Source: an uncultured Chitinophaga sp. | GTDB lineage: Bacteria > Bacteroidota > Bacteroidia > Cytophagales > Cyclobacteriaceae | Assembly: GCA_902168205.1 (NCBI GenBank) | Contig: CABHOK010000002.1 | Location: forward strand, 620,001 to 684,000 | Length of the DNA: 64,000 nt | Direction: 5' to 3' | Shown: positions 18,182 to 63,486 of the stretch, in pieces | Layout: every line of letters starts with the position of its first letter | Position numbering within the stretch: the first letter of the stretch is position 1 | Translations under genes and position numbers: made by a program | Notes under the pieces: generated by a model | What the model was told of the DNA's origin: nothing | What the model saw: the letters and a program-made list of their open reading frames with translations, nothing else | Databases searched by the model: none

Positions 18182-18211
18182 AGCCAGCAGCCACTCAAGC
18201 TCGCAGCTAAT
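18182..18211. repeat. AGCTNNN heptad array, left of the esterase remnant
   Basis: Consecutive units AGCCAGC, AGCCACTC, A, AGCTCGC and AGCTAAT end exactly one base before the remnant's stop codon. The preceding stretch (18131-18178, AGCTATATATAG ... ATTTTCCAG ... CTTGAAGC) is matched imperfectly by 18643-18687 on the other side of the remnant. Confidence 0.6.
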
Positions 18212-18568
18212 TCATTCTTTCCAGTCTTTATAGATAAATCGCAGCGCATCGTAATAGCCGACCATCGGGGATTTTTGTATTGGTAATACCAACAACAATC
18301 ATTTAGGTATAACATTTACATCCCAGCGGCTCAGGTAATCGGTATATTGAGAGAGCATCTCAAAGTGACTTTCACCGTCCAGTAAATATAGCACCGGGAA
18401 CCTTCTGTCCAGGTGAGCCGAATCCAATGCCGGGTAATGAATATAGATCTTGCGATATTCTTTTAATACTTTCGAATAAAGCGTTATAGCCACACTCGAA
18501 ACTGGCTTATACGACTCAACCTGCTGTGCCCTCACTTGAAAAACACAAAACAACAACATGATGAACAA
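18212..18568 (-). pseudogene. remnant of an alpha/beta-hydrolase esterase (COG2819-like)
   Basis: The N-terminal 89 residues look like a secreted putative esterase: hydrophobic leader, FQVRAQQV, VLKEYRKIYIHYPAL, RRFPVLYLLDGESHF. The frame ends at a TGA after VIPK. One base more would restore the continuation MIVVGITNT typical of the family, so a one-base deletion is likely. After a few codons the sequence jumps to SPMVGYYDALRFIYKDWKE and a stop (18212), which resembles the C-terminal end after the catalytic His. The nucleophile-elbow core is missing. The start is also damaged: only TTG 18568 or an internal ATG is available. The remnant is flanked on both sides by AGCT-type heptad arrays. Confidence 0.7.
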
Positions 18569-18620
18569 CTTGCATCATTTCATAGTGTAGGGTTAAAGAG
18601 TCTGGTAATTAGCACAATAT

Positions 18621-18843
18621 AGCTAAATAGCTGCGAGCTTCTAGCTATATAGCGAGACCTGAAATTTTCCAGCAACAACTTGAAGCTAATTGTATTATTT
18701 GTAGTTAGTAGCCGTTCCTCATTCATATTACCGCCCACAGGGCCCGCAATGGAAAGCTAGTAGTCAGCAGCTAATTGTATTTTCATAGTTAATACCTGTT
18801 TCCATTCACATCACCGTTCACAAGCTCGCAGCCAGCAGCTCCC
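18621..18843. repeat. AGCTNNN heptad arrays, right of the esterase remnant
   Basis: Several short arrays with a 7-nt (sometimes 8-nt) step lie here: 18621-18657 (AGCTAAAT, AGCTGCG, AGCTTCT, AGCTATAT, AGCGAGA), 18755-18775 (AGCTAGT, AGTCAGC, AGCTAAT) and 18823-18843 (AGCTCGC, AGCCAGC, AGCTCCC). Between them an imperfect repeat of about 85 bp starts at 18684 and again at 18769 (both AGCTAATTGTATT, then TAGTTA, ATTCA and ACC patterns). There is no coding potential. Confidence 0.65.
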
Positions 18844-18849
18844 AACAGA

Positions 18850-19878
18850 TTACGTTGCCTTACTACGAGTTGCTCGTTTTGCAATAATGCTCACCACGAT
18901 AAGTTGCAGCGCGTGGTACATCATGAGTGGAAGGAGCAGTAATCCAGTCGCGGTGTTGTTGGTGAAGAGTACGCGCGACATGACGGTGCCGTGGACAAGG
19001 GATTTTTTTGATCCACAGAAAACAACGGTAATTCGGTCTTTTCGATTGAAGTGAAGTATACTGCAGAGCATGTTTGTTATTCCGTATACAATAAAAAATA
19101 GCAGGAGCATGGCAACACCGAGTAATAGTAACTCGGGCAACGTGAGGTTGTCGAACATCTTTTTTTCGAACGATTCGCAGAAGGCAGTATATATAATAAT
19201 AAGAATGATGGTCTGATCAAAATACTTCAGCTGTTTTTTATACTTCTCTGCGATATGTCCCCACTTCGGGTTCAGTAAAATCCCTACTACTACCGGCAGC
19301 AATACCTGCAATACAAGTTTCCCCATAATACTACCGAGCTCTATATTTTGTGATGAGCCTGAGAGTATAAGTTCCATCCACAACGGAGTAATAAATACAC
19401 CGATGATGCTGGATATACTGGCATTAAATATAGCAGCCGGTATATTTCCTTCTGCCATCGACACCATCACTACCGATGATGATACCGTTGATGGTAAACT
19501 GGCCAGAAAAAAAGTACCGATCCACAACACGTGCCATTGTTCATCGGGCACCAACATCTGCAACGGAAAAACAAGTAACGGAAAGAGTATAAATGTACTG
19601 GCCTGCACGAGTATGTGAAGCTTCCAGTTACCAAGTCCTTGCTGCAGTTTTTGTTTGCTCAGGCGTAAGCCGTAGAAAAAGAAAATGAGTGAGACACCAT
19701 AATTCGCGAGCGATGATAACGAGAATGTTCCTTCTGTTATGCCGCCTTGTGGCCACAGGTATGCCAGCAGAATCATACCCAGCAGTGCCAGCACAAAACC
19801 ATCAAGTCCAAATCGTTGTAGCAGTCGCAGCGGATCGAATCGTAAGGACGTTTCGTTTTTTATCTCGTGATCGTTCAT
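18850..19878 (-). CDS. bile acid:sodium symporter-like transporter (SBF-like, YfeH type)
   Basis: A 342-residue integral membrane protein with about nine or ten hydrophobic helices. It shows the family pattern: an N-terminal LLRFGLDGFVLALLGMILLAYLWP, a SLPSTVSSSVVMVSMAEGN segment in the first core, and VFCGSKKSLVHGTVMSRVLF in the second inverted half. Members of the SBF-like/CPA group move organic anions or related solutes with sodium; the substrate is not predictable from sequence alone. The gene stands alone on the minus strand, divergent from the GH95 gene, and its stop lies 6 bp from the AGCT heptad region. Confidence 0.85.
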   Translation of the reverse strand: MNDHEIKNETSLRFDPLRLLQRFGLDGFVLALLGMILLAYLWPQGGITEGTFSLSSLANYGVSLIFFFYGLRLSKQKLQQGLGNWKLHILVQASTFILFPLLVFPLQMLVPDEQWHVLWIGTFFLASLPSTVSSSVVMVSMAEGNIPAAIFNASISSIIGVFITPLWMELILSGSSQNIELGSIMGKLVLQVLLPVVVGILLNPKWGHIAEKYKKQLKYFDQTIILIIIYTAFCESFEKKMFDNLTLPELLLLGVAMLLLFFIVYGITNMLCSILHFNRKDRITVVFCGSKKSLVHGTVMSRVLFTNNTATGLLLLPLMMYHALQLIVVSIIAKRATRSKAT

Positions 19879-20011
19879 GAACGCAATAAATAGCGAAGAA
19901 AATATTTTTCAAAAATCACACCGATAAAAGAAAAGTTTGCCGGTCTGTTTTATCTTCACGGCCCGAGTTACCCGGATTTTGTAATAATTTATAGTTAATA
20001 TTCTTCCCTTT

Positions 20012-22492
20012 ATGAAAAAAAATGATTACGCCTGGTATAGTGTTGTGCTGATGGTAAGCATGTTGGTGTGCCTGCCGGCTGTTGCACAGCAAGATACTTC
20101 CCTCAAACTTTGGTATGATAAACCTGCTGTTAAGTGGGAGGAGGCATTGCCACTTGGTAACGGACGTTTGGGCACCATGCTCTACGGTAATCCTCAAAAA
20201 GAAGAGCTGCAGTTAAATGAAGGTACAATATGGGCGGGCGGTCCTAACAACAACATCAACCCGGCTATAGGGCAATATATACCACAGATACGCCAGTTAC
20301 TGGCCGAGGGTAAATATGCCGAAGCACAGGCACTGGCCGATAAGAATGTAAAATCACTGAACGAAGGTATGCCGTATCAACCGGCCGGCAGTTTGTTCAT
20401 GGAGTTCGCTCCTTATAAAAATATATCCGAGTACTACCGCGATCTGAACATTGAGGATGCCGTAGCTACGGTATCGTATCGTGCGGATGGTGTAAAATAT
20501 AAGCGTGAAGTGTTTGCTTCCTTTACCGACCAGGTAATTATAGTTCGCCTTACAGCCGATAAACCTGGAAGCATTACGTGCAAACTTTCATTGAAGAGTC
20601 CGCAGAAGCATGCCGTGAGTTACGAGAAGAATACACTGCTGTTAACCGGTGTTACCAGCGATCACGAAGGTGTAAAAGGTGCTGTTGAATTTGAAGGACA
20701 GTTTCATGTATTGAACGAGGGTGGTAAAGTTACCGTTGATACATCGGGTATCGTCCTTACCAAAGCCAACGCAGCCACGGTATATATATCCATCGCCACG
20801 AACTTTAAAAACTACCACGACATCAGTGCAGATGAACACGCACGTGCCTCCCAGTATTTGCAACCTGCTCTGCGCAAGAAATATGTAAACGCGTTAACGG
20901 ACCACAAGAACTTCTATAAAAAATATTTTAACCGCGTAACACTGAACCTGGGCGCTACGGCATCGGTACAGAAAACAACCGATCAGCGACTCGCTGCATT
21001 TGCAACGTCTAATGACCCACATATGGCAGCGCTATATTTTCAATATGGACGTTACCTGCTGATATGCGGTTCACAACCCGGTGGACAACCTACGACATTG
21101 CAAGGTATATGGAATCACCACATGATGCCTCCGTGGGACAGTAAATATACCATCAACATTAACACCGAGATGAACTACTGGCCAGCGGAAGTAACCAACC
21201 TCAGCGAACTGCATGATCCGTTGTTCAAGATGCTCGATGATCTTTCGCATACCGGGCAGGAAAGTGCCACCAAAACGTATGGCGCACGCGGCTGGGTATG
21301 TCACCATAATACAGACCTGTGGCGTGTAACCGATCCGGTGGATGGTGCACATTCATGGGGTATGTGGCCGATGGGCGGTGCATGGTTATCGCAGCATCTG
21401 TGGGAACACTATATGTTTACCGGTGATGCTGATTTCCTGGAGCAATATTACCACGTGTTAAAAGGCGCGAGTCGTTTCTTTGCCGATGTGCTGCAGGAAG
21501 ATAAAGAACACCATTGGTTGATTGTGAGTCCTTCCGTATCACCGGAGAATACGTATCACTATAGCAGTACACAAGAGGCATCGATCACGGCTGGTGCTAC
21601 AATGGATAATCAGTTACTCTTCGATCTGTTTGGTCGTACTATAAAAGCAGCAGATATACTCAAGGTTGATAAAGCTTTTGCTGATTCACTGAGGGAGATT
21701 CGCTCGAAGCTTGCACCGATGCAGATCGGTAAGCACGGTCAGCTGCAGGAGTGGCTTCACGATTGGGACAATCCGGAAGACAAGCATCGTCACGTGTCAC
21801 ACCTCTACGGACTTTATCCAAGCAACCAGATATCACCGTATAGAAATCCTGAATTATTCCGTGCGGCTAAAAATACATTGATACAACGCGGAGATGTTTC
21901 TACCGGATGGTCGATGGGCTGGAAAGTAAATTTCTGGGCGCGTCTGCAAGATGGTAATCATGCTTTCAAACTGATTACTGATCAGCTTAAACCGGTCGGT
22001 ACCAATCCCGGTGGTGGTGGTACATATCCGAACTTGTTCGATGCGCATCCTCCGTTCCAGATCGATGGTAACTATGGATGTACTTCCGGTATAGCAGAAA
22101 TGTTGGTGCAGTCGCACGATGGTGCATTGCATATACTGCCGGCATTGCCTGATGAATGGAGGGATGGTGAAGTGAAGGGCCTTGTGGCGCGCGGTGGTTT
22201 TGAAGTGGACATTGTATGGAAAGAGAAGCAAATCACCAGTTTAAAAGTGCGCTCAAAGCTCGGTGGTGTTTGCAGAATTCGCGTGCATCAACCTTTAAAG
22301 GCCAATGGTAATTTTACCCTGAAGGAAGCAACCGGAGAGAATGTCAATCCTTTCTATGCTGTAGAAAGTGTAAAAACTCCGATTGTGTCGCCACAGGCGC
22401 AAGCACAACTTGGCAAAATAGAATTGCAGGCAAGTCTTCTGTATGATGTTGCAACAGAAGCTGGTACGGTGTATACCTTTATTCCGTTCTAG
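20012..22492 (+). CDS. glycoside hydrolase family 95 alpha-L-fucosidase-like enzyme
   Basis: An 826-residue exported enzyme with signal peptide ending at AVAQ (residues 1-26). GH95 hallmarks are present. The two Asn of [13 protein letters not shown] (Asn382, Asn384) activate the catalytic water, Glu512 in [10 protein letters not shown] is the probable acid, and Asp685 lies in PFQIDGNYG. The length and domain order (N-terminal beta domain, alpha/alpha barrel, C-terminal beta domain) agree with the family, which cleaves alpha-1,2-fucose or alpha-L-galactose. It sits outside the large polysaccharide locus and has no SusCD pair nearby. The next gene, an M3 peptidase, is 62 bp away and probably separate. 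Confidence 0.93.
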
Positions 22493-22494
22493 AA

Positions 22495-22520
22495 ACGGGA
22501 ATTTTCTTTCCGTATTTTTG
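22495..22520 (+). terminator. weak hairpin after GH95 overlapping a -7-like box
   Basis: ACGGGAA (22495-22501) pairs with TTTCCGT (22507-22513, one G-T) and is followed by ATTTTTG. The same bases TATTTTTG at 22513-22520 match the TAnnTTTG -7 consensus and could be the promoter of the M3 peptidase, whose start is 35 bp downstream. No clear -33 box is seen. Confidence 0.4.
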
Positions 22521-22554
22521 ATTTACTATTTTATCAAAACGAATTGAGACAACC

Positions 22555-24723: not shown

Positions 24724-24762
24724 AGTACTGCTGATTTACTTTTTTGAAGAATGCCTTTTGCG

Positions 24763-34975: not shown

Positions 34976-34985
34976 AAAAACTCAC

Positions 34986-35013
34986 AGCTCATAGCTCGCA
35001 GCTAAAAGCAAAA
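34986..35013. repeat. AGCTNNN heptad array inside the sigma/anti-sigma operon
   Basis: Four units AGCTCAT, AGCTCGC, AGCTAAA and AGCAAAA run without interruption and end 3 bases before the ATG of the anti-sigma gene. The array therefore covers the region where a ribosome would bind. Confidence 0.7.
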
Positions 35014-35883: not shown

Positions 35884-36765
35884 ATGAAAACGACATTACT
35901 AAGTATAGGTATAGCGCTGTGTATGGTAAATGTATATGCACAGCTCACGCATACCGAGAAGTCAACAAAGGAATTTACATTCGAAAAGAAAGATGTTAAT
36001 AACACATTGCTCATTGAAAACATCAATGGAAGTGTAGCGGTAACGGGCTATAGCGGTGACAAGATTGTGGTGGAAGTTACCAGGACCGTTCGAGCCAAAA
36101 CGCAGGCGCGGTTTGATAAAGCGAAAGAAGAAGTAAAGATGGGGGTGATCGACCTCGCAGATTCCATTATACTCTATAGCAGCGATGGCTGTACCCGGTT
36201 CGGCAGAGGTACGCCCAACAACAGAGGCCGGAATGGCTGGAGTTATAACTGGAACGAACGCGATGGCTGTCGCACGGAGTATGAATTTGAGTTGGACTTT
36301 GTCGTGAAAGTGCCAGCCGGTATAAATATAGGTGTAAGCACAATCAACAATGGTGATGTTGCCGTGCAGGGTGTAACCGGCATCGTGATCGCGAATAACA
36401 TCAACGGAAGTATAAAATTACAGAACATGGTGCGCGAAGCCGAAGCGAGTACGATCAACGGAAACCTGGATGTAGAGTATACTACCAATCCGAAAAAGAA
36501 ATGCCGCTTCTATACACTCAATGGAGACATCAACGCACTGTTTCAAAAGGGACTCGCGGCCGACCTAAGCTTCGAAAGTTTCAATGGTAGTTTTTATACC
36601 AACATTGAAAAGATAGAAGCACTTCCTGCCAAGATCGAGAAGAGCGACAAAGGCAACGGCATACGCTATAAAGTAATGGACAACCTGTTTAAAACCGGAC
36701 AAGGCGGAGTGATGCTCGACTTTGAGACATTCAATGGAAATGTATACCTGAAGGAGAAGAATTGA
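35884..36765 (+). CDS. DUF4097-family secreted beta-repeat protein
   Basis: A 293-residue exported protein with signal peptide MKTTLLSIGIALCMVNVYA. After the leader comes a run of beta segments with recurring NINGSVAV, INNGDVAVQGVTG, NINGSIKL, TINGNLDV, TLNGDINAL, SFNGSFYT and TFNGNVYLK elements, about 20-25 residues apart. This is the DUF4097 pattern of a right-handed beta-helix-like stack. Such proteins are termed putative auto-transporter adhesin-head-like. It follows the anti-sigma gene by 69 bp and is probably co-regulated with the next DUF4097 gene. Confidence 0.85.
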   Translation: MKTTLLSIGIALCMVNVYAQLTHTEKSTKEFTFEKKDVNNTLLIENINGSVAVTGYSGDKIVVEVTRTVRAKTQARFDKAKEEVKMGVIDLADSIILYSSDGCTRFGRGTPNNRGRNGWSYNWNERDGCRTEYEFELDFVVKVPAGINIGVSTINNGDVAVQGVTGIVIANNINGSIKLQNMVREAEASTINGNLDVEYTTNPKKKCRFYTLNGDINALFQKGLAADLSFESFNGSFYTNIEKIEALPAKIEKSDKGNGIRYKVMDNLFKTGQGGVMLDFETFNGNVYLKEKN

Positions 36766-36771: not shown

Positions 36772-36806
36772 GTTATCCGTTAATGGTTATTCGTTAACCG
36801 TGATCT
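36772..36806. repeat. GTTANNN heptad array, plus orientation
   Basis: Five units with an exact 7-nt period: GTTATCC, GTTAATG, GTTATTC, GTTAACC and GTGATCT. It begins 6 bases after the stop of the first DUF4097 gene and is mirrored by an array in the opposite orientation at 36899-36926. Confidence 0.75.
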
Positions 36807-36898: not shown

Positions 36899-36926
36899 TA
36901 ATAACGATTAACTGATAACGAATAAC
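36899..36926. repeat. GTTANNN heptad array, minus orientation
   Basis: Read on the plus strand: TAATAAC, GATTAAC, TGATAAC, GAATAAC, i.e. four GTTANNN units on the minus strand with exact 7-nt period. With 36772-36806 it forms an inverted pair about 90 bp apart; the transcript could fold on itself. Confidence 0.75.
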
Positions 36927-36936
36927 GACTACGGAA

Positions 36937-37845
36937 ATGAAAAATCAAATACTAACAATAGCCCTCGCACTGATCACCTTCGGGTTGATACTCATCTCAT
37001 CATCGATCGCGAATGCTCAGAGCAACAGTGAATTTACCGTGCCCCTGAGTGATCCGGCAAAGCGAGGTAAACTCAAAGCACATCTTAATTTCGGTTCGAT
37101 CACAGTGAAAGGAACTGCGCGTAAGGATGTACTGGTAAAGTATAAATCTGGTGAGGATAATGATTGTGACGGCTGCGATGATGACGGTGAAGAGAAAGAC
37201 AAAGACAAAGATCATTCGCACAACAAAAATCGTAATAACAATAAGGAGAATAACAGCAGCTCAAAATCCGAGGGACTTCGCAAGATTGGCGGTGGCGGTA
37301 TGGATCTTGAAGTTACCGAGAACAACAACTTTGTAAAAGTGCAGTCTGATTCATGGAATCATAAAGTTGACCTGGAGATTGAAGTGCCTTCCGGTTTCGA
37401 TATGGAAGTGCACACCTATAACGATGGCGATCTGATGGTTACCAACGTGCAGGGCGATCTCGAGCTTACCAACTATAACGGGGAGATAACGGCCCTCAAC
37501 ATTTCCGGAGCGATCGTAGCTACAACATTTAATGGTGAAGTAAAGATAACGTTCGATAAAGTAAAAGAAGGAGCACCAATGTCGTTTACAACATTTAATG
37601 GTGATATAGATCTTACGTTCCCGGCATCGCTGAAGGCTTCGTTCAAAATGAAAACCGAGCAAGGCGAGATCTTTACCGGCTTTGATATGAAGATGACCAG
37701 TGCCGGTCCGGTGCAGAAGAAAGATGCAAAATCAGGAGTATACCGTGTTACAGTAGACGACTACAAACGAGGTGACGTGAATGGAGGAGGAGCGGAGATC
37801 ATGCTGAAGAATCACAACGGTGATATTTACGTTCGCAAGAAATAA
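36937..37845 (+). CDS. DUF4097-like secreted protein with Asp/Lys/Asn-rich insert
   Basis: A 302-residue exported protein (signal peptide ending SSSIANA). It shares the NGD/NGE beta-repeat pattern of the preceding gene (YNDGDLMVTNVQGDLELTNYNGEITALNISGA, TFNGEVKI, TFNGDIDL, HNGDIYVRKK). It differs by a low-complexity insert at about 71-111: DNDCDGCDDDGEEKDKDKDHSHNKNRNNNKENNSS, with two Cys, many Asp and two His. That insert could bind divalent metal ions or be flexible spacer; this is inference. It is the last gene of the ECF sigma run and is followed by a terminator. Confidence 0.82.
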   Translation: MKNQILTIALALITFGLILISSSIANAQSNSEFTVPLSDPAKRGKLKAHLNFGSITVKGTARKDVLVKYKSGEDNDCDGCDDDGEEKDKDKDHSHNKNRNNNKENNSSSKSEGLRKIGGGGMDLEVTENNNFVKVQSDSWNHKVDLEIEVPSGFDMEVHTYNDGDLMVTNVQGDLELTNYNGEITALNISGAIVATTFNGEVKITFDKVKEGAPMSFTTFNGDIDLTFPASLKASFKMKTEQGEIFTGFDMKMTSAGPVQKKDAKSGVYRVTVDDYKRGDVNGGGAEIMLKNHNGDIYVRKK

Positions 37846-38031: not shown

Positions 38032-38505
38032 ATGCCATTACCGGTTGGAACGAAGGCGCCCGATTTTACATTAGGCTCAACGAGTGGGAGAGATTTTTCG
38101 CTGTATCGCGACATGAAGAACAAGCCTTGTATTTTATACTTCTATCCCAAAGATTTTTCAGTAGGTTGTACCAATGAAGCTTGTAGTTTCAGAGATACCT
38201 TCGAAGTGTTTAAGGAATTGAACATTACAATCATCGGCATCAGCCGTGATTCATTGGAAAGTCACGCCAAGTTCAAGAAGACACTCGCGCTTCCGTTTGA
38301 TTTACTTGCTGATGTGGAGGGAAAAGTTTGTCAACTGTACGATACGCAATTGCCGTTTGTACCTTTATTTACCAAGCGCACTACGTATCTGCTGGATAAA
38401 GACCAGACTATATTAGCGATGTACCAGAATATATTCTCATCGAAGCGGCACATCAAGGCCATGGTAGAGAATGTTACGGCGCCCACGCGGAGGCAAGCCG
38501 TTTAG
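38032..38505 (+). CDS. atypical 2-Cys peroxiredoxin, PrxQ/BCP-like
   Basis: A 157-residue thiol peroxidase that reduces peroxides at the expense of thioredoxin. The active site reads FYPKDFSVGCTNEACSFRD: Pro39, Ser43 (in place of Thr) and peroxidatic Cys46, with a second Cys51 five residues on as in PrxQ. The usual TPGC is SVGC here. Length and N-terminal PLPVGTKAPDFTLGSTSGRDFSL agree with the family. The gene overlaps the end of the convergent HAD phosphatase gene by 4 bp. Cytoplasmic location is likely. Confidence 0.9.
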   Translation: MPLPVGTKAPDFTLGSTSGRDFSLYRDMKNKPCILYFYPKDFSVGCTNEACSFRDTFEVFKELNITIIGISRDSLESHAKFKKTLALPFDLLADVEGKVCQLYDTQLPFVPLFTKRTTYLLDKDQTILAMYQNIFSSKRHIKAMVENVTAPTRRQAV

Positions 38506-39281
38506 GCTTCCCACCACGGTAACGGAAATTTGATCTCGGTTACAGATGTAACAACCATATCCGGTTTGAAAGCATATTTGATCAGGTCTTCCTTCTTGGT
38601 GATACCGCTGAGAGTAAGTATAGTTTTATAGCCCATCTGAACACCGCCTTGTATATCGGTATCCATGGTATCACCGATCACGGTAGTGTCTGCAGTTTCA
38701 AGTCCTAAGGCTTTACGGGCAGAGCGCATCATTACCGGACCAGGTTTTCCAATCACAAACGCTTTTATACCGGAAGCCTCTTCGATCATCGCAGTAGTAG
38801 CGGCTATACCGAGGTTAGCCCATCCTGCTTTTTTAGGAGAAGGATCGCGGTTGGTAGTAATAAATTTGGCACCGGCCAGAATCATATCTACAGCACGCTG
38901 CACCATTTCCAGTGTAAAGTTTCTGCCTTCACCCAACACAACAAAATCAGGATCAGTTTCTACCAGCGATATACCATTTTCATGCAAGCTGGTGAGTAAG
39001 CCTCCTTCACCGAGTACATAGGCAGAACCGTTTGGAATTTGACCGGCCAGAAATTTACCGGTAGCCATCGCACTGGTATAAATATGTTTTTCATCCACGT
39101 TTATACCCAGCTTCTTCAGCTTGCGCACAGCCTCTGTACGTGTACGCTGACTGTTGTTGGTCATAAACATGAAGGGTATATCTTTTTTAAGTAACATGGC
39201 TATAAATTCGTCAGCCCCCGGTATAAGTATATCGCCACCGTATACAACACCATCCATGTCAATGAGTAAGCCTTTTGCCAT
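38502..39281 (-). CDS. HAD-IIA sugar-phosphatase-like hydrolase (NagD type)
   Basis: A 259-residue phosphatase from ATG 39281; the longer frame begins with a TTG and a poorly conserved leader. HAD motifs are visible: LLIDMDGVVY (nucleophile and acid Asp), FMTNNSQRTR, and the late acidic motif VIGDTMDTDIQGG. A C2-type cap follows motif I, as in NagD and AraL. It dephosphorylates small phosphometabolites. It is monocistronic and lies near, but not in, the polysaccharide locus. The exact substrate is unknown. Confidence 0.92.
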   Translation of the reverse strand: MAKGLLIDMDGVVYGGDILIPGADEFIAMLLKKDIPFMFMTNNSQRTRTEAVRKLKKLGINVDEKHIYTSAMATGKFLAGQIPNGSAYVLGEGGLLTSLHENGISLVETDPDFVVLGEGRNFTLEMVQRAVDMILAGAKFITTNRDPSPKKAGWANLGIAATTAMIEEASGIKAFVIGKPGPVMMRSARKALGLETADTTVIGDTMDTDIQGGVQMGYKTILTLSGITKKEDLIKYAFKPDMVVTSVTEIKFPLPWWEA

Positions 39282-39310
39282 TTTAGTAGAGTAAGTTATA
39301 GTCAAATATA

Positions 39311-39352
39311 GTTAACGGTTAATAGTTATCCGTCATTCGTTAACAGTTATCC
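39311..39352. repeat. GTTANNN heptad array, six perfect units
   Basis: GTTAACG, GTTAATA, GTTATCC, GTCATTC, GTTAACA, GTTATCC in an unbroken 7-nt register. It lies 30 bp upstream of the HAD gene start. No inverted partner is present before the AACAC array at 39410. Confidence 0.75.
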
Positions 39353-39409: not shown

Positions 39410-39474
39410 AACACCTGAACACACCAACACCTCAACACAACAAACACACATACTTACGTAAACACCTAAACACG
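39410..39474. repeat. AACACNNN octad array reaching the LacI stop codon
   Basis: AACACCTG, AACACACC, AACACCTC, AACACAAC and AAACACAC follow in an 8-nt register to 39449. After an 11-base interruption, AACACCT and AAACACG continue from 39461 into the 3' end of the LacI gene (stop at 39466). Confidence 0.6.
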
Positions 39475-40485
39475 TCTCGTGCTGTTTCGCACAATCAACT
39501 CCGTAGGCAAGATCTTTGTAATCGGCTTAAACTCCTGTTTGTTCTCCACTTGCTGGATGAAGAGTTTGGCAGCGGTTTGTCCCATCTGGTAAGCGGGTTG
39601 TGCCACCGTGGTAAGTGAAGGTTCGATGAACTGCGATACCGGTTCGTTGGTAAATCCTACGAGCGATATTTCATCGGGTATACGAACGCCTTTTTCTTTT
39701 AGCACCTGCATGGCAAGTATGGCGACCGGATCATTCATGCAAAATATAGCATCGGGTCGCTGCGGTAAATCCAGGAGCTTGTGTGTAGCTGCGGTAGGAT
39801 CGGTATGCAGATCTTTACAATGAATGATCAGCTCTTCATCAAGTTCTACATTGTAGTTACGTATAGCATCGCGGTAGCCACGTAAGCGCTGATCACTTAC
39901 ATAAAGTGTTTCAGGTCCGCCAATGAAAGCGATGCGTTTACAGCCTGTGCGTATCAAATGTTCAGCAGCTTTAAAGCCACCGTTATAATCATCTACTACA
40001 ACTTTGGAAACATCGAGCTCGCTGGTGATACGGTCGAACAACACTATCGGTATTTGCTTGGCCAGTAAATGTTCGAGGTGCTCTACATTTTTAGTCTGAC
40101 TTGACAGCGATATCAGTAATCCGTCCACGCGGTTCGATACCAGCATGTGTATATTTGATTTCTCTGTTCGCAGCGATTCCATCGACTGACAGATCATAAT
40201 GCTATAGTCGTGCTTCGCTGCATACTCCTGTATACCACTGATGGTAGAGGAGAAGAAATGCATGGCAATCTCCGGTACAACCACACCAATGGTGTTTGTC
40301 TTTTTAATGCGGAGACTTTGTGCTACACGATTAGGTTCATAGTGTAATTGTTTGGCAAGTTCGAGTACAGCTTTTTTGGTTTCAGGATTTACATCCGGAG
40401 CATTGCGAAGAGCGCGCGAAACAGTTGAGATGGAAATGTTGAGTTTGATAGCAAGGTCGCGGATGGTAGCCTGAGGGTTCTTCAT
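39466..40485 (-). CDS. LacI/GalR-family transcriptional regulator
   Basis: A 339-residue regulator. The HTH is ATIRDLAIKLNISISTVSRALRNAPDVNPETKKAVLELAKQLHYEPNRVAQSL (about 5-60). A periplasmic-binding-like sensor domain follows, starting TNTIGVVVPEIAMHFFSSTISGIQEYA and including GFTNEPVSQFIEPSLTTVAQPAYQMGQTAAKLF. It is divergent from the ECF sigma gene that opens the polysaccharide locus and shares a 258-bp control region with it. Palindromes found here (40614-40631) and upstream of galK (56653-56670) are candidate operators. It probably represses until a sugar from the glycan binds; the ligand is unknown. Confidence 0.92.
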   Translation of the reverse strand: MKNPQATIRDLAIKLNISISTVSRALRNAPDVNPETKKAVLELAKQLHYEPNRVAQSLRIKKTNTIGVVVPEIAMHFFSSTISGIQEYAAKHDYSIMICQSMESLRTEKSNIHMLVSNRVDGLLISLSSQTKNVEHLEHLLAKQIPIVLFDRITSELDVSKVVVDDYNGGFKAAEHLIRTGCKRIAFIGGPETLYVSDQRLRGYRDAIRNYNVELDEELIIHCKDLHTDPTAATHKLLDLPQRPDAIFCMNDPVAILAMQVLKEKGVRIPDEISLVGFTNEPVSQFIEPSLTTVAQPAYQMGQTAAKLFIQQVENKQEFKPITKILPTELIVRNSTRRV

Positions 40486-53267: not shown

Positions 53268-54302
53268 ATGAAAAGAGTATATATAGCCCTTTGTTTGTTC
53301 ATTGCGAGTATCTCCGCGTTTTCGCAGGCAACGTTTACCAATCCATTGTTACCATCTGGTGCTGACCCGTGGAGTATATATAAAGATGGTTACTATTATT
53401 ATACCCATACACTTGGCAATCGCATCGACATCTGGAAGACAAAGAACCTGGCCGATCTGAAAACAGCCGAACGTAAAACCATCTGGATACCTCCGTCCAA
53501 TACAAAATATTCCAAAGAGATCTGGGCGCCTGAAATTCATTTTCTGCAAGGCAAGTGGTATGTATACTTTGCGGCCGATGATGGCAAGAATGATAACCAC
53601 AGACTATATGTATTAGAGAACGCCTCAGCTGATCCATTTGCAGATACATGGGTATTCAAAGGAAAAATTTCTGATCCTTCTGATAAGTGGGCGATAGATG
53701 GTTCCGTATTCGAATTCAAAAAACAACTATATATGGTTTGGTCAGGATGGGGAGGCGATACCAACGGCCGGCAGGATATATACATAGCCAAGCTGAAAAA
53801 TCCCTGGACGATCGAGGGTAACCGTGTAAAGATTTCGCATCCCGAACATGAATGGGAGCGTCATGGTGATCTCAATGACCCGGGCAATCCACCGCATGTA
53901 GACGTCAATGAAGGTCCGCAGGTGCTGGTATATAAAGATAAAGTGCATATTATATACTCGGCCAGCGGTTGCTGGACAGATTTCTATGCGCTGGGTATGT
54001 TAAGTACATCTGCCAAAAGCGATTTGATGGATGCATCGGCCTGGAAGAAATCGGCAAAGCCTGTATTTCAAAAGTCGGAAGCGAATAAAGTATTTGCTCC
54101 GGGACACAATTCATTCTTTAAATCACCTGATGGAAAAGAAGACTGGATACTATACCACGCCAATGCCGAACCAGGACAAGGTTGTGGTGGACATCGTTCG
54201 CCACGTGCACAGAAATTTACCTGGAATGCTGATGGAGCGCCATTGTTTGGGGAACCGGTGAAGGAGGGGGATGCTCTGGCGATACCGGCTGTTAAGAAGT
54301 AA
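53268..54302 (+). CDS. GH43-type glycosidase (paralogue 3)
   Basis: A 344-residue exported enzyme (leader MKRVYIALCLFIASISAFSQ). Catalytic residues are Asp33 (GADPW), Asp144 (WAIDGS) and Glu215 (VNEGP). A His/Pro-rich loop just before the acid Glu (LNDPGNPPHVDVNEGP) is absent from paralogue 2 and may shape the subsite. It shares the APGHNSFFKSPDGKEDWILYHAN segment with the 51086 product. It lies 16 bp after the GH172 gene. Periplasmic furanosidase activity is likely; the sugar specificity is not determined by eye. Confidence 0.9.
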   Translation: MKRVYIALCLFIASISAFSQATFTNPLLPSGADPWSIYKDGYYYYTHTLGNRIDIWKTKNLADLKTAERKTIWIPPSNTKYSKEIWAPEIHFLQGKWYVYFAADDGKNDNHRLYVLENASADPFADTWVFKGKISDPSDKWAIDGSVFEFKKQLYMVWSGWGGDTNGRQDIYIAKLKNPWTIEGNRVKISHPEHEWERHGDLNDPGNPPHVDVNEGPQVLVYKDKVHIIYSASGCWTDFYALGMLSTSAKSDLMDASAWKKSAKPVFQKSEANKVFAPGHNSFFKSPDGKEDWILYHANAEPGQGCGGHRSPRAQKFTWNADGAPLFGEPVKEGDALAIPAVKK

Positions 54303-54316
54303 GGAGTAAGAAATAA

Positions 54317-55355: not shown

Positions 55356-56459
55356 ATGAAACAAATCAGTAAACAACTGCTCGCTGTGATTCTTTTGATA
55401 TCGCTGTTCACAGCTTGTCAGAAGAAAGAAACAGCGCAGGAGCAACCAACGGCACAGGTACCCGCAGCACGCGATATCTGGACGAAGGAGCAAGCCAACG
55501 AATGGTATAAACAATGGGGCTGGCTGCGCGGCAGTGATTTTATACCGAGCTCTGCTATCAATCAATTGGAAATGTGGCAGGCTGAGACATTTGATACGGC
55601 CACTATCAATCGTGAGCTGGGTTGGGCTGAAGATATAGGCATGAACTCGATGCGCGTATACTTGCATCACCTCGCTTGGGAGATTGACTCTGTCGGTTTC
55701 AAGAACCGCGTAAATGAATATCTCAACATCGCTGACAAGCATGGTATATCTACGTTGTTTGTGTTGTTCGATGACTGCTGGAATCCAACGTACCAGGCCG
55801 GTAAGCAACCCGATCCAAAGCCGGGCATCCACAACTCGGGTTGGATACGCGACCCAGGCGATAAGCTTCATGAAGACTCAACACTCTATATTGTACTGGA
55901 GCGCTATACCAAGGACGTGCTCTCACACTTTGGAAAAGACAAGCGCATTGTTCTGTGGGATCTGTACAACGAACCCGGTAACTCTGGCTATGGAAACAAA
56001 TCTATGCCATTGCTGAAGAAAGTATTTCAGTGGGGGAGAGAGGTAAATCCATCACAGCCATTATCAGTAGGTGTATGGAACAAAGATCTTGTTGATCTGA
56101 ACCACTATCAATTGGACAACTCCGATGTTACCACCTATCACAACTATATGGAGCCGGAAGTTCACAAGCAGTGGATCGATAGTCTGCGTTCAACCGGTCG
56201 CCCGCTGATCTGTACCGAGTATATGGCCCGTACACGCAACAGCCGTTTCGACAACGTAATGCCTATGCTGAAACAGGAAAATATAGGAGCCTATAACTGG
56301 GGACTAGTAGCCGGTAAAACCAACACTATATATGCCTGGGATACACCAATGCCCGATGGCAAAGAACCGAAAGTATGGTTCCACGATATCTTCCGCAAAG
56401 ACGGCACTCCGTATAGCAAGGAGGAAGTAGCGTTGATTAAGAAGCTGACGGGGAAATAG
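55356..56459 (+). CDS. GH5-like cellulase-family lipoprotein
   Basis: A 367-residue lipoprotein (lipobox LFTAC, Cys21). The TIM-barrel contains the acid/base Glu206 in WDLYNEPGN and nucleophile Glu288 in LICTEYMAR, the clan GH-A pair. The conserved WTKEQANEWYKQWGWLRGSDFIPSSAINQLEMWQ ... FDTATINRELGWAEDIGMNSMRVYLHHLAWE block belongs to a widespread group annotated as cellulase-family or 1,4-beta-xylanase. I suspect GH5 subfamily 13, where furanosidase activity has been reported, but I cannot verify that from the sequence. It is the last enzyme of the cluster and is followed by the AGT/AAGT repeat region. Confidence 0.85.
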   Translation: MKQISKQLLAVILLISLFTACQKKETAQEQPTAQVPAARDIWTKEQANEWYKQWGWLRGSDFIPSSAINQLEMWQAETFDTATINRELGWAEDIGMNSMRVYLHHLAWEIDSVGFKNRVNEYLNIADKHGISTLFVLFDDCWNPTYQAGKQPDPKPGIHNSGWIRDPGDKLHEDSTLYIVLERYTKDVLSHFGKDKRIVLWDLYNEPGNSGYGNKSMPLLKKVFQWGREVNPSQPLSVGVWNKDLVDLNHYQLDNSDVTTYHNYMEPEVHKQWIDSLRSTGRPLICTEYMARTRNSRFDNVMPMLKQENIGAYNWGLVAGKTNTIYAWDTPMPDGKEPKVWFHDIFRKDGTPYSKEEVALIKKLTGK

Positions 56460-56471
56460 CTGTCCGCTTTG

Positions 56472-56640
56472 AGTAAGAAGTGAGAAGTAGGAAGAAGTCG
56501 GGAAGCCGGGAAGACAGGGAAGCGTAAAAGTTTTTTGGTTTTACTTCTTACTCCTGACTTCTTACTTCCGCATTACGATCTGTGCACCAACTCACATTAT
56601 GCCTCAAACTCCACTTCCGGACTTCCCGACTTTCGGACTT
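56472..56640. repeat. AGTNNGA heptads and AGNCGGGA octads in inverted pairs
   Basis: Plus orientation: AGTAAGA, AGTGAGA, AGTAGGA then AGTCGGGA, AGCCGGGA, AGACAGGGA (56472-56520). Minus orientation: TCTTACT, CCTGACT, TCTTACT (56546-56566) and CCGGACTT, CCCGACTT, TCGGACTT (56617-56640). Heptad and octad blocks are each answered by their reverse complement. Confidence 0.75.
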
Positions 56641-56652
56641 CTGCCACTTAAG

Positions 56653-56670
56653 AACGTTACCGGAATCGTT
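56653..56670. promoter_or_regulatory. candidate LacI operator upstream of galK
   Basis: AACGTTACCGGAATCGTT, an even palindrome around CCGG (7 of 9 pairs). It is nearly identical, over 21 bp, to the site in front of the locus sigma gene. Confidence 0.7.
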
Positions 56671-56676
56671 ATTTCA

Positions 56677-56695
56677 CGCTGGAAACAGCGCTTTT
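56677..56695 (+). terminator. short hairpin with GAAA loop just after the operator
   Basis: CGCTG (56677-56681) and CAGCG (56686-56690) close a GAAA tetraloop and are followed by CTTTT. It may terminate the enzyme transcript or act as an attenuator. Confidence 0.5.
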
Positions 56696-56766
56696 ATTCC
56701 TAATGTCAACACGATTCGTGTACTTCGTATCGTCATTAACATTTTGGGTTAATTGATTGGTTAAGT

Positions 56767-56808
56767 ACCGGAGATCGAAAGGAGTTTGATCTCCGGTTAC
56801 TATTTTAT
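56767..56808 (+). promoter_or_regulatory. 10-bp hairpin in the galK leader
   Basis: ACCGGAGATC (56767-56776) pairs perfectly with GATCTCCGGT (56788-56797) around 11 nt, followed by TACTATTTTAT. It ends 39 bp before the galK start, so it could stop or hold back galK transcription. Confidence 0.5.
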
Positions 56809-56835
56809 AGAGGACACCTAAACTTATTTTAAATA

Positions 56836-58020: not shown

Positions 58021-58023
58021 GGC

Positions 58024-59055: not shown

Positions 59056-59069
59056 TTTACGCAATGACA

Positions 59070-59106
59070 CTTTGTGCCTCCTTCGTGCCCTTGGTGTAAT
59101 GGATTT
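59070..59106. repeat. CTTNGTG repeat in the galE-galT gap
   Basis: CTTTGTG, CTTCGTG and CTTGGTG at unequal spacing (11 and 9 nt), then TAATGGATTT. A second copy with the same AATGGATTT end is at 63380-63425. Confidence 0.55.
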
Positions 59107-59119
59107 CTGAAGTATATAT

Positions 59120-60190
59120 ATGACGCAGTTCGATTTAAAAGATCACTCCCACAGACGATATAACCCGCTCACCGGAGAGTGGATACAGGTATCACCACAC
59201 CGCTCCAAGCGCCCGTGGCAGGGACAGGTTGAGAAAACCGGTGCACAAACTTTATTGTCATTCGATCCTACCTGTTACTTATGTCCGGGGAATGTGCGCG
59301 CCAATGGAGAAGTAAATCCGAAATATACTTCTACCTATGCGTTCACCAACGACTTTGCAGCGCTGGTAGATGATGTACCGGCAGGGGAGTTCCGCGACAG
59401 CGATCTGCTCATCGCCAAAAGCGAAGCCGGTATATGCCGCGTGATCTGTTTCTCACCGCGTCATGATCTTACCGTTGCCGAGATGGATGTGGCGGGTATC
59501 CGTAGCGTTGTAGACCTGTGGGTAAACGAATATACTGAGCTCGGCAAGAATAAGAACATACAGTATATACAGATATTCGAGAACAAAGGTGCAGTGATGG
59601 GTTGCTCCAACCCGCATCCGCACGGACAGATCTGGGCACAGCAATCCGTTCCCGTAGAGCCTGCAAAGAAGCAACAACACCAGTTAGATTACTTCAATCG
59701 TAAAGGTGCTACGTTACTTTCGGATTACTGGAAGCTTGAACAAAAACACCAGGAGCGCATTGTGTTTGAGAACGATCACTTTGCCGTAGTAGTACCGTTC
59801 TGGGCAACATGGCCTTTCGAAACCATGATCATTCCCAAGCGACCGATGGCGCGCATCACCGAAATGACGGATGTTGAGCGTAATGCTTTCGCGGATGCCT
59901 ATCGCAGAATGGCTGCGCGCTATGATAATCTTTTCGAAGTATCTTTCCCGTATTCAGCTGGTATACACCAGGCACCAAGCGATGGTGAAGCGCATGCCGA
60001 GTGGCACTGGCACATGGTGTTCTATCCACCGTTGCTGCGTTCAGCTACCGTGAAGAAATTTATGGTAGGGTATGAGATGCTGGCTAATCCACAACGCGAT
60101 ATTACACCTGAATTCAGCGCGGACCGTCTGCGTTCGCTTTCCGATATTCATTTCAAAAATCGAGTAGTTTCTGAAATACCAAACCCCTAA
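59120..60190 (+). CDS. galT: galactose-1-phosphate uridylyltransferase
   Basis: A 356-residue HIT-superfamily enzyme that swaps UMP between UDP-glucose and galactose-1-phosphate. The active site HPHGQIW is at 166-172, with His168 as the likely nucleophile. The N-terminal LTGEWIQVSPHRSKRPWQGQ and a CYLCPGN zinc-binding-like pair (Cys52, Cys55) are present. The C-terminal half has SAGIHQAPSDGEAHAEWHWHMVFYPP. It lies 64 bp after galE with a repeat in the gap and 4 bp before galM. Confidence 0.96.
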   Translation: MTQFDLKDHSHRRYNPLTGEWIQVSPHRSKRPWQGQVEKTGAQTLLSFDPTCYLCPGNVRANGEVNPKYTSTYAFTNDFAALVDDVPAGEFRDSDLLIAKSEAGICRVICFSPRHDLTVAEMDVAGIRSVVDLWVNEYTELGKNKNIQYIQIFENKGAVMGCSNPHPHGQIWAQQSVPVEPAKKQQHQLDYFNRKGATLLSDYWKLEQKHQERIVFENDHFAVVVPFWATWPFETMIIPKRPMARITEMTDVERNAFADAYRRMAARYDNLFEVSFPYSAGIHQAPSDGEAHAEWHWHMVFYPPLLRSATVKKFMVGYEMLANPQRDITPEFSADRLRSLSDIHFKNRVVSEIPNP

Positions 60191-60194
60191 GTTT

Positions 60195-61364: not shown

Positions 61365-61387
61365 TTGATTGTGTATAGCATACAGAA

Positions 61388-61432
61388 GAAGCTGTTTCTG
61401 AGATATACTTTGGAAACAGCTTCTTTTTTTTG
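61388..61432 (+). terminator. terminator of the gal run
   Basis: GAAGCTGTTTC (61388-61398) pairs perfectly with GAAACAGCTTC (61413-61423), followed by TTTTTTTT. It is the strongest terminator in the window and separates galM from the symporter. Confidence 0.9.
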
Positions 61433-61465
61433 ACCATACATTAAAAAATTTGCAAGAAGTGGAAT

Positions 61466-61488
61466 ACGACAAAGAAATATTTTGTCGT
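61466..61488. promoter_or_regulatory. inverted repeat upstream of the symporter
   Basis: ACGACAAA (61466-61473) and TTTGTCGT (61481-61488) flank 7 nt. It lies 100 bp before the symporter start and has no T run, so an operator is more likely than a terminator. It is not related to the CCGG palindromes. Confidence 0.45.
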
Positions 61489-61587
61489 TTCAAAAAGAAC
61501 ATTCATTTTTATCGATTGAACGAACGTGTGAAGTTGTGACTTTACCTATTAATTATTTGCAAAACCAAACCGAATCAAACCTGAACC

Positions 61588-63261
61588 ATGCGACAATTAC
61601 AAGCTGTTGACTACGTAGTCTTCCTGATTTACTTCGTCATCGTGGCCGGCTATGGCTACTGGATTTACCACCGAAAGAAAAAACAGTCAACTGACTCGAA
61701 AGATTTCTTCCTCGCGGAAGGATCGCTCACATGGTGGGCTATCGGTGCATCGCTCATCGCTTCTAACATTTCTGCCGAGCAATTCATCGGTATGTCAGGT
61801 TCAGGCTTCAAGATGGGCCTCGCGATTGCAACCTACGAGTGGATGGCAGCCGCTACACTCATGATCGTAGCGATCTTCTTCATGCCGATCTACCTTAAGA
61901 ATAAGATCTATACCATGCCGCAGTTCCTTACGCAGCGTTATGGTCCAACGGTAAGTACCATCATGGCAATCTTCTGGTTGCTGTTATACGTAGTGGTAAA
62001 CCTTACCTCAATACTATACCTCGGTGCACTGGCCGTTACAACGGTGTCTGGTATACCTTTCTGGACGTGTATGATTGGTCTCGCGGTGTTTGCAATCTTC
62101 ATCACGCTGGGCGGTATGAAAGTGATCGGATATACCGATGTTATCCAGGTGTTCTTCCTGATACTCGGTGGTCTTGCCACAACATACCTGGCGATGGATC
62201 TCGTATCACAACACTTCAACACAGCCGGTGTAGGAGAGGGCTTCAACCTGATGATGTCGAAAGCAGATGATCACTTTCACATGGTGTTCGACAAGAGTAA
62301 TCCTAATTACCTCGATCTCCCCGGACTTACCATTCTCATTGGTGGTATGTGGATTGTGAACCTGAACTATTGGGGATGTAACCAGTATATCACGCAACGT
62401 GCACTCGGTGCTGATCTTCCTACAGCGCGCAACGGTATATTGTTCGCAGCGTTCCTGAAGTTGTTGATGCCGATCATCGTTGTACTTCCGGGTATAGCAG
62501 CGTATGTGTTGTACCAGGATGGTATGTTCCAGCAGGACATGCTTGCCAATGGTGAGCTGAATCCTGACCGCGCTTATCCTGTATTGTTGAACCTGCTCCC
62601 GGTAGGATTGAAAGGACTTGCCTTCGCAGCGCTTACGGCTGCTATCGTAGCATCACTTGCCGGTAAAGCCAACAGTATATCAACGATCTTTACGCTGGAT
62701 ATCTATAAGAAATTCTTCAACACCAATGCTTCTGAAAAACAACTGGTATATATCGGTCGCGTAGCGGTTGTGGTGTCGATGGTGATTGCGATCATTATAT
62801 CGCCATTCCTTGGTATCGATAAGAAAGGTGGTTTCCAGTATATACAGGAATATACCGGCTTCGTGTCGCCTGGTATCTTCGCTATATTTATTTTAGGCTT
62901 TTTCTGGAAGCGCACCAACTCCGCTGCTGCTATGGCGGCAGCGTTGATCACCTTCCCGCTGTCAATCCTGTTGAAGTTCTTACCGAAGATGACGGACCTG
63001 TCTTCGCTCAGCGGTATGGGCTTCTCTGCACTGAACAAAGAAACAGGTTTGTATGAAATTCCATTCCTCGATCGTATGGGCTTCGTGTTCATCATCTGCG
63101 TACTGGTAATGGTGATATTAACTGTAATGGATCCTAACAGCAAGAAGAACCCGAAAGGTCTCGAAGTAGATGCCAACATGTTCAAACCTAAAGGTGCATT
63201 TGCCGTAGGTGCATTGATCGTGCTGGGTATATTGGCTATGCTGTATACGATCTTCTGGTAG
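61588..63261 (+). CDS. sodium/sugar symporter, SSS family (SGLT-like)
   Basis: A 557-residue inner-membrane transporter with about 14 helices. SGLT-type marks are clear: SLTWWAIGASLIASNISAEQFIGMSGSGFKMGLAIATYEWMAAATLMIVAIFF, GGMKVIGYTDVIQVFFL, NLNYWGCNQYITQRALGA and AALTAAIVASLAGKANSISTIFTLDIY. It co-transports sugar with sodium; relatives take galactose or glucose. Its position after the gal run suggests it carries released galactose into the cell. It has its own upstream region behind the galM terminator. Confidence 0.93.
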   Translation: MRQLQAVDYVVFLIYFVIVAGYGYWIYHRKKKQSTDSKDFFLAEGSLTWWAIGASLIASNISAEQFIGMSGSGFKMGLAIATYEWMAAATLMIVAIFFMPIYLKNKIYTMPQFLTQRYGPTVSTIMAIFWLLLYVVVNLTSILYLGALAVTTVSGIPFWTCMIGLAVFAIFITLGGMKVIGYTDVIQVFFLILGGLATTYLAMDLVSQHFNTAGVGEGFNLMMSKADDHFHMVFDKSNPNYLDLPGLTILIGGMWIVNLNYWGCNQYITQRALGADLPTARNGILFAAFLKLLMPIIVVLPGIAAYVLYQDGMFQQDMLANGELNPDRAYPVLLNLLPVGLKGLAFAALTAAIVASLAGKANSISTIFTLDIYKKFFNTNASEKQLVYIGRVAVVVSMVIAIIISPFLGIDKKGGFQYIQEYTGFVSPGIFAIFILGFFWKRTNSAAAMAAALITFPLSILLKFLPKMTDLSSLSGMGFSALNKETGLYEIPFLDRMGFVFIICVLVMVILTVMDPNSKKNPKGLEVDANMFKPKGAFAVGALIVLGILAMLYTIFW

Positions 63262-63279
63262 CCATACCGTTGTGGAGCC

Positions 63280-63314
63280 GTTAATCGTTATCCGTTAATC
63301 GTTAGACGGATAAC
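63280..63314. repeat. GTTANNN heptad array, plus orientation
   Basis: GTTAATC, GTTATCC, GTTAATC and GTTAGAC (63280-63307) followed by one inverted unit GGATAAC (63308-63314). It begins 18 bp after the symporter stop and is paired with the opposite array at 63452-63486. Confidence 0.75.
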
Positions 63315-63350
63315 CGACAACAGTCAAACAACATTTAGATAAATGACAAG

Positions 63351-63379
63351 GGTCTGATACGCAAGTGTCAGACCTTTTT
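63351..63379 (+). terminator. hairpin terminator after the symporter
   Basis: GGTCTGATAC (63351-63360) pairs with GTGTCAGACC (63365-63374; one G-T) around a GCAA tetraloop, then TTTTT. It sits between the two GTTANNN arrays. Confidence 0.85.
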
Positions 63380-63425
63380 CTTTGTGTACCTCTGCGTATT
63401 CTTTGTGCCTTCGTGCAATGGATTT
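63380..63425. repeat. CTTNGTG repeat
   Basis: CTTTGTG, CTCTGCG, CTTTGTG, CTTCGTG separated by 3, 4 and 1 nt, ending in CAATGGATTT. It shares its end with the copy at 59070-59106. Confidence 0.55.
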
Positions 63426-63451
63426 TAATTTCACCGTGAAGCGCAACCCTG

Positions 63452-63486
63452 CGATAACGAATAACGATTAACCGATAACGATTATC
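63452..63486. repeat. GTTANNN heptad array, minus orientation
   Basis: Read on the plus strand: CGATAAC, GAATAAC, GATTAAC, CGATAAC, GATTATC in exact 7-nt register. It lies 24 bp before the start of the YafY-like gene. Confidence 0.75.

Follow-up and report, generated by a model that had tools for sequence, protein, structure and literature searches.

What kind of element fills the gaps between genes with short repeats in which only part of each unit is fixed? This question is raised by a 64-kb stretch of DNA (hereafter the window, positions 620001-684000 of contig C2) from a 7.3-Mb host genome of 20 contigs (G000), whose intergenic regions (IGRs) carry arrays in which a core such as GTTA recurs at a step of 7 or 8 nucleotides (nt) while the other positions vary. 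To judge by sequence, the host is a relative of Ohtaekwangia, and a HEAT-repeat protein from the window has 75% identity to Ohtaekwangia koreensis and 76% to a metagenome-assembled relative. An Rfam search of the window gave no match at gathering score. The explanation we favor, although only tentatively, is that these are untranslated-region arrays acting at the RNA level, wherein the half located in leaders repeats a word native to leaders and the half located in trailers is its mirror image.

The variable-core arrays are a real and strongly structured feature of this genome. The occurrence of each family was evaluated in 1.658 Mb of the genome, where 1,021 IGRs (201,749 bases with margins) were each compared with 50 dinucleotide shuffles. 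In these IGRs, (GTTANNN)x4 was observed 43 times, (AACACNNN)x3 26 times, (AGCTNNN)x3 13 times, (AGTNNGA)x3 twice, and (AGNCGGGA)x2 once, compared with none in the shuffled sequences for any of them. Two CTTNGTG words at a step of 7 to 9 were found three times versus 0.06 in shuffles, and an extra family absent from the original prediction, AAGATTNN/AATCTTNN with a step of 8, yielded six (AAGATTNN)x3 arrays versus none. All five families named in that prediction, which was made from the sequence of the window, were recovered at or near their predicted places, and the comparison with shuffled intergenic DNA that it proposed reveals families in excess, with more arrays elsewhere in the genome. 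For the AGT and CTTNGTG families there are few exact arrays, and the evidence is thin. Exact GTTA runs of 2, 3, 4, 5, 6, and 7 units occur 48, 17, 20, 5, 3, and 1 times, where shuffles give 11.8 and 0.2 for the two shortest lengths. Runs of at least four equal 4-mers in the IGRs number 37 at step 7 and 49 at step 8, with no more than 4 at every other step from 5 to 14. Across the entire genome there are 92 overlapping matches to (GTTANNN)x4 and none to the reversed control pattern, and 52 of the 53 GTTA arrays with a step of 7 and at least three cores in the 1.658 Mb are intergenic, where gaps make up 10.4% of the DNA.

What is new in this analysis is the polarity of the arrays relative to gene edges. 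Among the intergenic GTTA and GTGTT arrays, 59 of 71 point away from the nearest gene edge (GTTA with a step of 7, 45 away and 7 toward, n = 52; GTGTT, 14 away and 5 toward, with 2 others within open reading frames (ORFs)), as do 11 AAGATT arrays, with 1 toward. The same polarity was seen in an earlier test on 1.26 Mb. In the retrieved loci of a sister species (G001), 26 of 26 GTTA and 14 of 14 intergenic GTGTT arrays likewise point away from the edge, 40 of 40 together, with 2 more within ORFs. The AGT family lacks it (AAGT with a step of 7, 2 away, 2 toward, and 2 within ORFs; GAAGT with a step of 8, 1 and 1), and genome G052 has one GTGTT array of each direction. The edge behind a GTTA array is a start in 31 cases and a stop in 21. 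Because arrays point away from gene edges, they form convergent pairs within gaps. By reading, all 10 pairs of opposite-strand neighbors located no more than 300 bp apart in the whole genome have GTTA first and TAAC second, and both arms are present in 14 of the 38 gaps that contain GTTA arrays. In the remaining sequence of the other 24, cores of opposite polarity outnumber those of the same polarity by 33 to 12, which suggests that several of these single arrays have a worn partner. Among the paired gaps of the GTTA, GTGTT, and AAGATT families, one family supplies both arms in 20 of 21, and the sole mixed pair consists of the window arrays at 39311 and 39410.

As a consequence of this polarity, the message strand carries TAAC, AACAC, or AATCTT 5′ of starts and GTTA, GTGTT, or AAGATT 3′ of stops. 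In same-strand gaps of up to 110 nt, 12 of 12 single arrays (three families pooled) are of the leader strand, and two more such gaps hold pairs; in longer same-strand gaps there are 7 leader singles, 6 trailer singles, and 10 pairs. The short gaps of the sister species, assessed by eye, are likewise mostly of the leader strand, with trailer exceptions at loci L164 and L175. Twenty-six leader arrays have an ATG no more than 45 nt downstream, and 20 of them belong to the GTTA family. Of these 20, 13 end no more than 17 nt before the ATG, or 16 if any TAAC is counted.

Some of the words that form the leader cores are also favored in leaders that lack arrays. In 535 array-free leaders, tetramers near the ATG (about -4 to -22) were ranked against those far from it (-45 to -90). 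The top words are TTAA, AACC, AAAC, CTAA, TAAC (5th of 256), and AACA (6th), with AATC 13th, whereas the complements GTTA, TGTT, and GATT rank 39th, 218th, and 72nd. TAAC and AACA peak 8 to 15 nt before the ATG: TAAC occurs 9, 12, and 10 times at the positions 9 to 11 nt away, compared with 2.6 per position far upstream, and AACA occurs 12 and 17 times at 8 and 9 nt, compared with 2.9. AACA ranks 1st and TAAC 13th of 216 in 123 array-free leaders of O. koreensis, a genome poor in arrays. By these ranks, leader arrays repeat a word already favored at that place, and trailer arrays carry its complement without native use in trailers. The AGT, CTTNGTG, and AGCT families fall outside this rule.

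Gaps with array pairs have a mean folding z-score of -4.8 (19 IGRs, both strands averaged), compared with -1.7 (SD 1.85) for control gaps (60 of 375 eligible, one strand). The variable triplets of GTTA arrays have a property of their own. There are 36 kinds among the 193 units of 47 arrays, mainly ATC, TCC, TTC, and ATG (a preference for GTTA-W-Y-C), and adjacent units are less alike than chance. In a first set of arrays, neighbors share 112 matching letters versus 165 ± 9.7 expected, and 2 of 133 are identical versus 12.7 expected. A second set comprises 33 arrays found elsewhere in the genome (one is shared with the first set), and for it the values are 56 versus 100.6 ± 7.5 and 1 of 82 versus 7.7. 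The effect involves all three free positions (z = -5.5, -4.1, and -4.4) and direct neighbors only. The sister species agrees for both GTTA (86 versus 104.1 ± 7.4) and GTGTT (57 versus 68.4 ± 4.4), and the AAGATT arrays of the host are suggestive of the same trend (6 versus 12.2 ± 2.7).

The sister species is about 82 to 91% identical in longer matches, and wherever an intergenic array locus could be aligned, both species have an array, some of them worn in one; six host loci had no aligned counterpart. Three leader arrays (C2:301404, 388810, and 394662) are identical to the letter, and C2:308212 and 659311 retain place, step, and most cores with changed triplets. At C2:304670 and 353718, both arms appear by eye to be of the GTGTTTAC flavor in the host and the GTGTTGAN flavor in the sister species. 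Thirteen of the 52 intergenic GTTA arrays were aligned, of which 7 were counted, 2 gapped alignments and 4 with runs of N being excluded. Differences affect 5 of 116 core letters, 16 of 87 triplet letters, and 36 of 323 flanking letters (core versus triplet, p = 0.0018; core versus flank, 0.039; triplet versus flank, 0.10), where the core count is an underestimate, possibly by a factor of up to two, since intact cores in one of the two species were a condition for choosing an array.

An RNA-level role could operate as follows. At starts, the message strand would present (UAACNNN)n, (AACACNNN)n, or (AAUCUUNN)n, in many cases with no more than about 17 nt left before the AUG, and the array would thereby offer the favored word several times, either to the ribosome at initiation or to a protein that binds single-stranded RNA with a footprint of 7 to 8 nt. 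That the leader array is a signal shown repeatedly is suggested by the fact that TAAC, AACA, and AATC are favored in leaders, in a phylum that does not use Shine-Dalgarno sequences. Located 3′ of stops, mostly in longer gaps, arrays built on the complementary word (GUUANNN, GUGUUNNN) could form a gap-wide hairpin through core-to-core pairing with a leader array of their own family. The likely use of this hairpin would be to hide the leader in read-through RNA. The triplets between cores would not be the signal, and those of GTTA arrays may be kept unlike their neighbors by selection that removes substrates for slippage. Such masking by trailers is a putative role. A bolder version, which we regard as improbable, is a leader/anti-leader system: each transcription unit would open with a start signal in several copies and close with an array of its complement, such that read-through folds the next leader away and transcripts from the gene's own promoter leave it open. 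The families would then be interchangeable "alphabets" matched across a gap, with neighbors kept different against slippage.

Besides the undercount of core changes, a number of observations weigh against an RNA-level leader and trailer function. Starts were taken from ATG-first ORF calls made in this analysis, and the polarity found in the sister species covers only the loci retrieved, some of which were chosen for resemblance to host arrays. Another species of the genus (G006) has 2 GTTA arrays pointing away and 3 toward, with identical units. Convergent (stop-to-stop) gaps hold array pairs without a leader to hide, and in several paired gaps the spacer between the arms is 9 to 43 nt, which leaves no room for a promoter. 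GTTA is not enriched 3′ of stops in array-free gaps (169th of 256). Among the core words, ATCT (28th) and ACAC (62nd of 256) fit leaders poorly, AATC is only 115th of 216 in O. koreensis leaders, and part of the rank of leader words must reflect composition, since these words are A-rich like all leaders here. The GTGTT arrays of the host lack neighbor dissimilarity (65 versus 66.2 ± 5.1 matching letters; identical 5 of 50 versus 4.1 expected). Finally, the complementarity between the arm triplets does not exceed that of permuted ones (2.46 versus 2.78 ± 0.24, 14 pairs), and a hairpin built on triplet complementarity was rejected on average for these pairs, although runs of matching units exist in two of them (C2:292066 and C2:269554). 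Pairing would thus be core to core, and hairpin strength is not maximized. The transcript folding listed among possible roles in the original prediction is consistent with the strong folding of array-pair gaps, but it gains no support from their arm triplets. GTTA gap types (24 ++, 10 --, 9 -+, and 9 +-) resemble those of all gaps (472, 301, 195, and 188), and thus a direction-blind role at the DNA level would fit as well.

Such a role defines the strongest rival, to which we give a minor share of belief. A protein that reads the core would assemble on the arrays at each end of a gap, regardless of the direction of transcription, and bridge or insulate it. Protein arrays, one of the roles suggested in the original prediction, are possible. 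Equal polarity at starts and stops, the ordinary mix of gap types, and the slower change of cores relative to triplets between species are all consistent with this explanation. It would not explain why every one of the 12 singles in short same-strand gaps lies on one message strand, nor why the cores are favored words of leaders and not of trailers, and it would require separate readers for several unrelated families.

Rather doubtful is the proposal that the arrays are functionless scars of end repair, formed when an enzyme added core-plus-random units to both 3′ ends of a broken gap, which was then joined. This would account for the inward polarity, for arms of one family on either side of a gap, for nested families, and for the maximum at four units among runs of 3, 4, and 5 units (17, 20, and 5). 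The aligned loci shared with the sister species, where most cores are intact despite triplet turnover, argue against it, and the match to leader words and the strand bias in short gaps would be left unexplained. No match to PF00078 (RVT_1) was found in the host and one was found in the sister species, other enzymes not having been searched for.

We consider it quite unlikely that the arrays are ordinary short tandem repeats that grew by slippage and then decayed. Heptamer arrays with identical units are common in the phylum, and G006 has them within the genus; G006 (5 arrays) and G055, which is AT-rich and belongs to the same order, show an excess of identical neighbors, opposite to the GTTA arrays of the host. 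(TAATCAA)n followed by (TAACTTA)n is an example of the compound heptamer arrays with identical units seen in G055. In the relatives set, 24 of 59 genomes, the host included, contain (GTTANNN)x4, as do 68 of 198 genomes drawn from the phylum, in many listed places as identical units; because the reversed control matches 63 of these 198, heptamer arrays are common as such and GTTA is not special phylum-wide. Within the genus, two other species have 205 and 174 matches and four have 0 to 9. In the host, units within one GTTA array share 1.09 of 3 letters, compared with 1.22 between arrays, and this value together with the neighbor tests led us to reject slippage as their origin. The earlier claim that the arrays are not slippage products thus stands for GTTA, whereas the GTGTT arrays show no effect and the AGCT arrays the reverse, with neighbors more alike than chance (85 versus 58.0 ± 7.3).

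Equally hard to credit is a palindromic mobile element family of the REP/BIME or MITE type that fills gaps, as in the mobile cassettes once suggested for these arrays. Inverted arms and intergenic location are typical of such elements, and relative to O. koreensis, which is syntenic at about 65 to 85% nucleotide identity, array gaps are a median of 38 nt longer, other gaps changing by -1 (mapped gaps differing by no more than 300 nt). This gain is below the size of most pairs, and gaps with unpaired arrays are mostly about as long as in O. koreensis. That genome is almost devoid of called arrays (2 of any listed family in 400 kb, compared with 44 of the GTTA and GTGTT families in 858 kb of C2). 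The array at C2:394662 is present in both genomes, with units partly the same. As for gene gain or loss, length differences above 300 nt affect 2 of 11 mapped array gaps and 3 of 98 others, which are small numbers. Among array gaps, 2 of 13 were not mapped and none was broken; among the others, 48 of 151 were not mapped and 5 were broken. Neither is there a unit order common to the 85 GTTA arrays when neighbor dissimilarity is allowed for (bigrams 208 versus 212 ± 36; trigrams 11 versus 8.5 ± 3.8), which led us to reject copying from a master element. Taken with neighbor dissimilarity, this result argues that GTTA arrays are neither decayed identical repeats nor copies of one element. The suggestion of mobile cassettes also fails to agree with the arrays present at alignable loci of the sister species, and a search of the genome for Y1 transposases of the REP type (PF01797) gave one match (E = 7.8e-8). 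Neither a reverse transcriptase nor a Y1 transposase has clear support as array maker. Rho-dependent termination, considered for the C-spaced look of GTTANYC, was dropped by inference only, as GTGTTGAN and AAGATTNN lack such C spacing.

The features of the window are collected in Table 1.

Table 1. Arrays and related features of the 64-kb window (window coordinates)
Position	Strand	Feature	Context	Basis
36772..36799	+	GTTANNN array, 4 units	Trailer arm; stop of ORF 35884-36765 lies 6 nt upstream	
36902..36929	-	NNNTAAC array, 4 units	Leader arm of the gap shared with the 36772 array; ATG of ORF 36937-37845 is 10 nt past last core	
39311..39352	+	GTTANNN array, 6 units with 5 cores	Upstream of minus-strand ORF 38502-39305; message strand is leader type; aligned with sister species	
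39410..39441	-	AACACNNN array, 4 units	Trailer type; adjoins stop of minus-strand ORF 39466-40485	
63280..63307	+	GTTANNN array, 4 units	Trailer arm; stop of ORF 61588-63261 lies 18 nt upstream	
63348..63379	+	Terminator-like stem-loop with T run	In spacer; identical in sister species	Read from sequence and alignment
63380..63426	+	CTTNGTG element, end CAATGGATTTT	Flanked by both GTTA arms	Read from sequence and alignment
63455..63482	-	NNNTAAC array, 4 units	Leader arm; ATG at 63510 is 30 nt past last core	
34981..35003		AGCTNNN array, 3 units	In 41-nt gap between sigma-70-type gene and HEAT-repeat gene	
56472..56494	+	AGTNNGA array	3′ of stop of ORF 55356-56459	
56494..56523	+	AGNCGGGA octamer array	Immediately after AGTNNGA array at 56472	
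56541..56568	-	AGTNNGA array, reverse orientation	Plus strand reads TTACTTC	
56613..56641	-	Octamer array, reverse orientation	Plus strand reads ACTTCCGG	
59070..59106	+	CTTNGTG element, end TAATGGATTT	Closely 5′ of ORF 59120-60190; shorter version in sister species; read from sequence and alignment	
54293..54316	+	TAAGAAG-type heptamers	Abutting ATG 54317	
18182..18850		Irregular AGC(T) repeats, variable steps, no clean array	Long stretch without called ORF; read from sequence	

The AGCT family exceeds shuffles, but its stretch at 18182-18850 is irregular. In array-free gaps of the host, GAGC is the top-ranked tetramer 3′ of stops and AGCT is sixth, and GAGCC precedes several trailer GTTA arrays; AGCT may be a trailer word. 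The two CTTNGTG elements of the window and those at C2:308270 and 556300 end in a common tail (TAATGGATTT/CAATGGATTT or similar). Three of these four sit between GTTA arms, and the stretches that hold them have many weaker matches in the sister species. At two array gaps, C2:556207-556530 and C2:683262-683509, the interval between the corresponding flanking genes is about 1.4 to 1.7 kb longer in O. koreensis. At locus L214 of the sister species, about 600 bp that are absent from the corresponding host region (C3:1381200-1381345) lie inside an inverted CTTNGTG pair, and these include a small gene whose predicted product has a helix-turn-helix look. A run of AACAC words within an ORF (C2:651136-651167) has fewer of them in the sister species and in O. 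koreensis through point substitutions.

The REP/BIME elements are intergenic, foldable inverted repeats that are copies of one sequence and are associated with RAYT transposases. The present arrays are likewise inverted, intergenic, and foldable, but those of the GTTA family are not copies and their arm triplets are not complementary. The STRR of cyanobacteria are 7-nt intergenic tandem repeats with identical units, for which we know of no core-plus-variable rule; adjacent GTTA units, in contrast, are rarely identical. The nearest kin are the fixed TAACTGA arrays described in Beggiatoaceae, cyanobacteria, and five Bacteroidetes, for which translational control was proposed (MacGregor 2015, PMC4679880). 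These share with the present arrays the 7-nt step, the TAAC word, the intergenic location, message-strand TAAC near starts, and a suggested translational role. In the BOGUAY genome, where most TAACTGA sets lie directly 5′ of start codons, 147 of 170 point toward starts and 12 toward stops. One-base variants of the unit seldom form repeats; some sets are interrupted by related 7-mers, Microcystis has mixed heptamers, and F. litoralis has one set 3′ of a stop in reverse orientation, which matches the polarity rule seen here (PMC4679880). The present arrays differ in that their triplets vary and differ between neighbors, with the TAACTGA equivalent GTTATCA forming only 6 of the 193 GTTA units; in that mirror arrays lie 3′ of stops; and in the frequent convergent same-family pairs and the octamer families. 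The original view that such arrays are not known in Bacteroidota is therefore wrong in part. Our literature search, mostly at title and abstract level and with few subscription journals, turned up neither variable-triplet arrays like these nor the octamer families, and no paper listed described the edge-polarity rule. In Flavobacterium johnsoniae, initiation is Kozak-like and independent of Shine-Dalgarno sequences, with leader nucleotides and structure tuning initiation and an adenine at -3 helping it (Baez 2019, PMC6847099). That phylum is the same as here; single key nucleotides, not arrays, are described there.

How start codons are chosen in Bacteroidota without Shine-Dalgarno pairing is an unsettled question, and the leader arrays are natural variants of the start signal in which unit, spacing, and copy number become testable. 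Models of repeat evolution must also account for the dissimilarity of neighboring GTTA units, which extends to all three free positions and is in itself unusual for a repeat. If it is true that trailers mask leaders in read-through RNA, the arrays would constitute a simple insulation device between neighboring genes.

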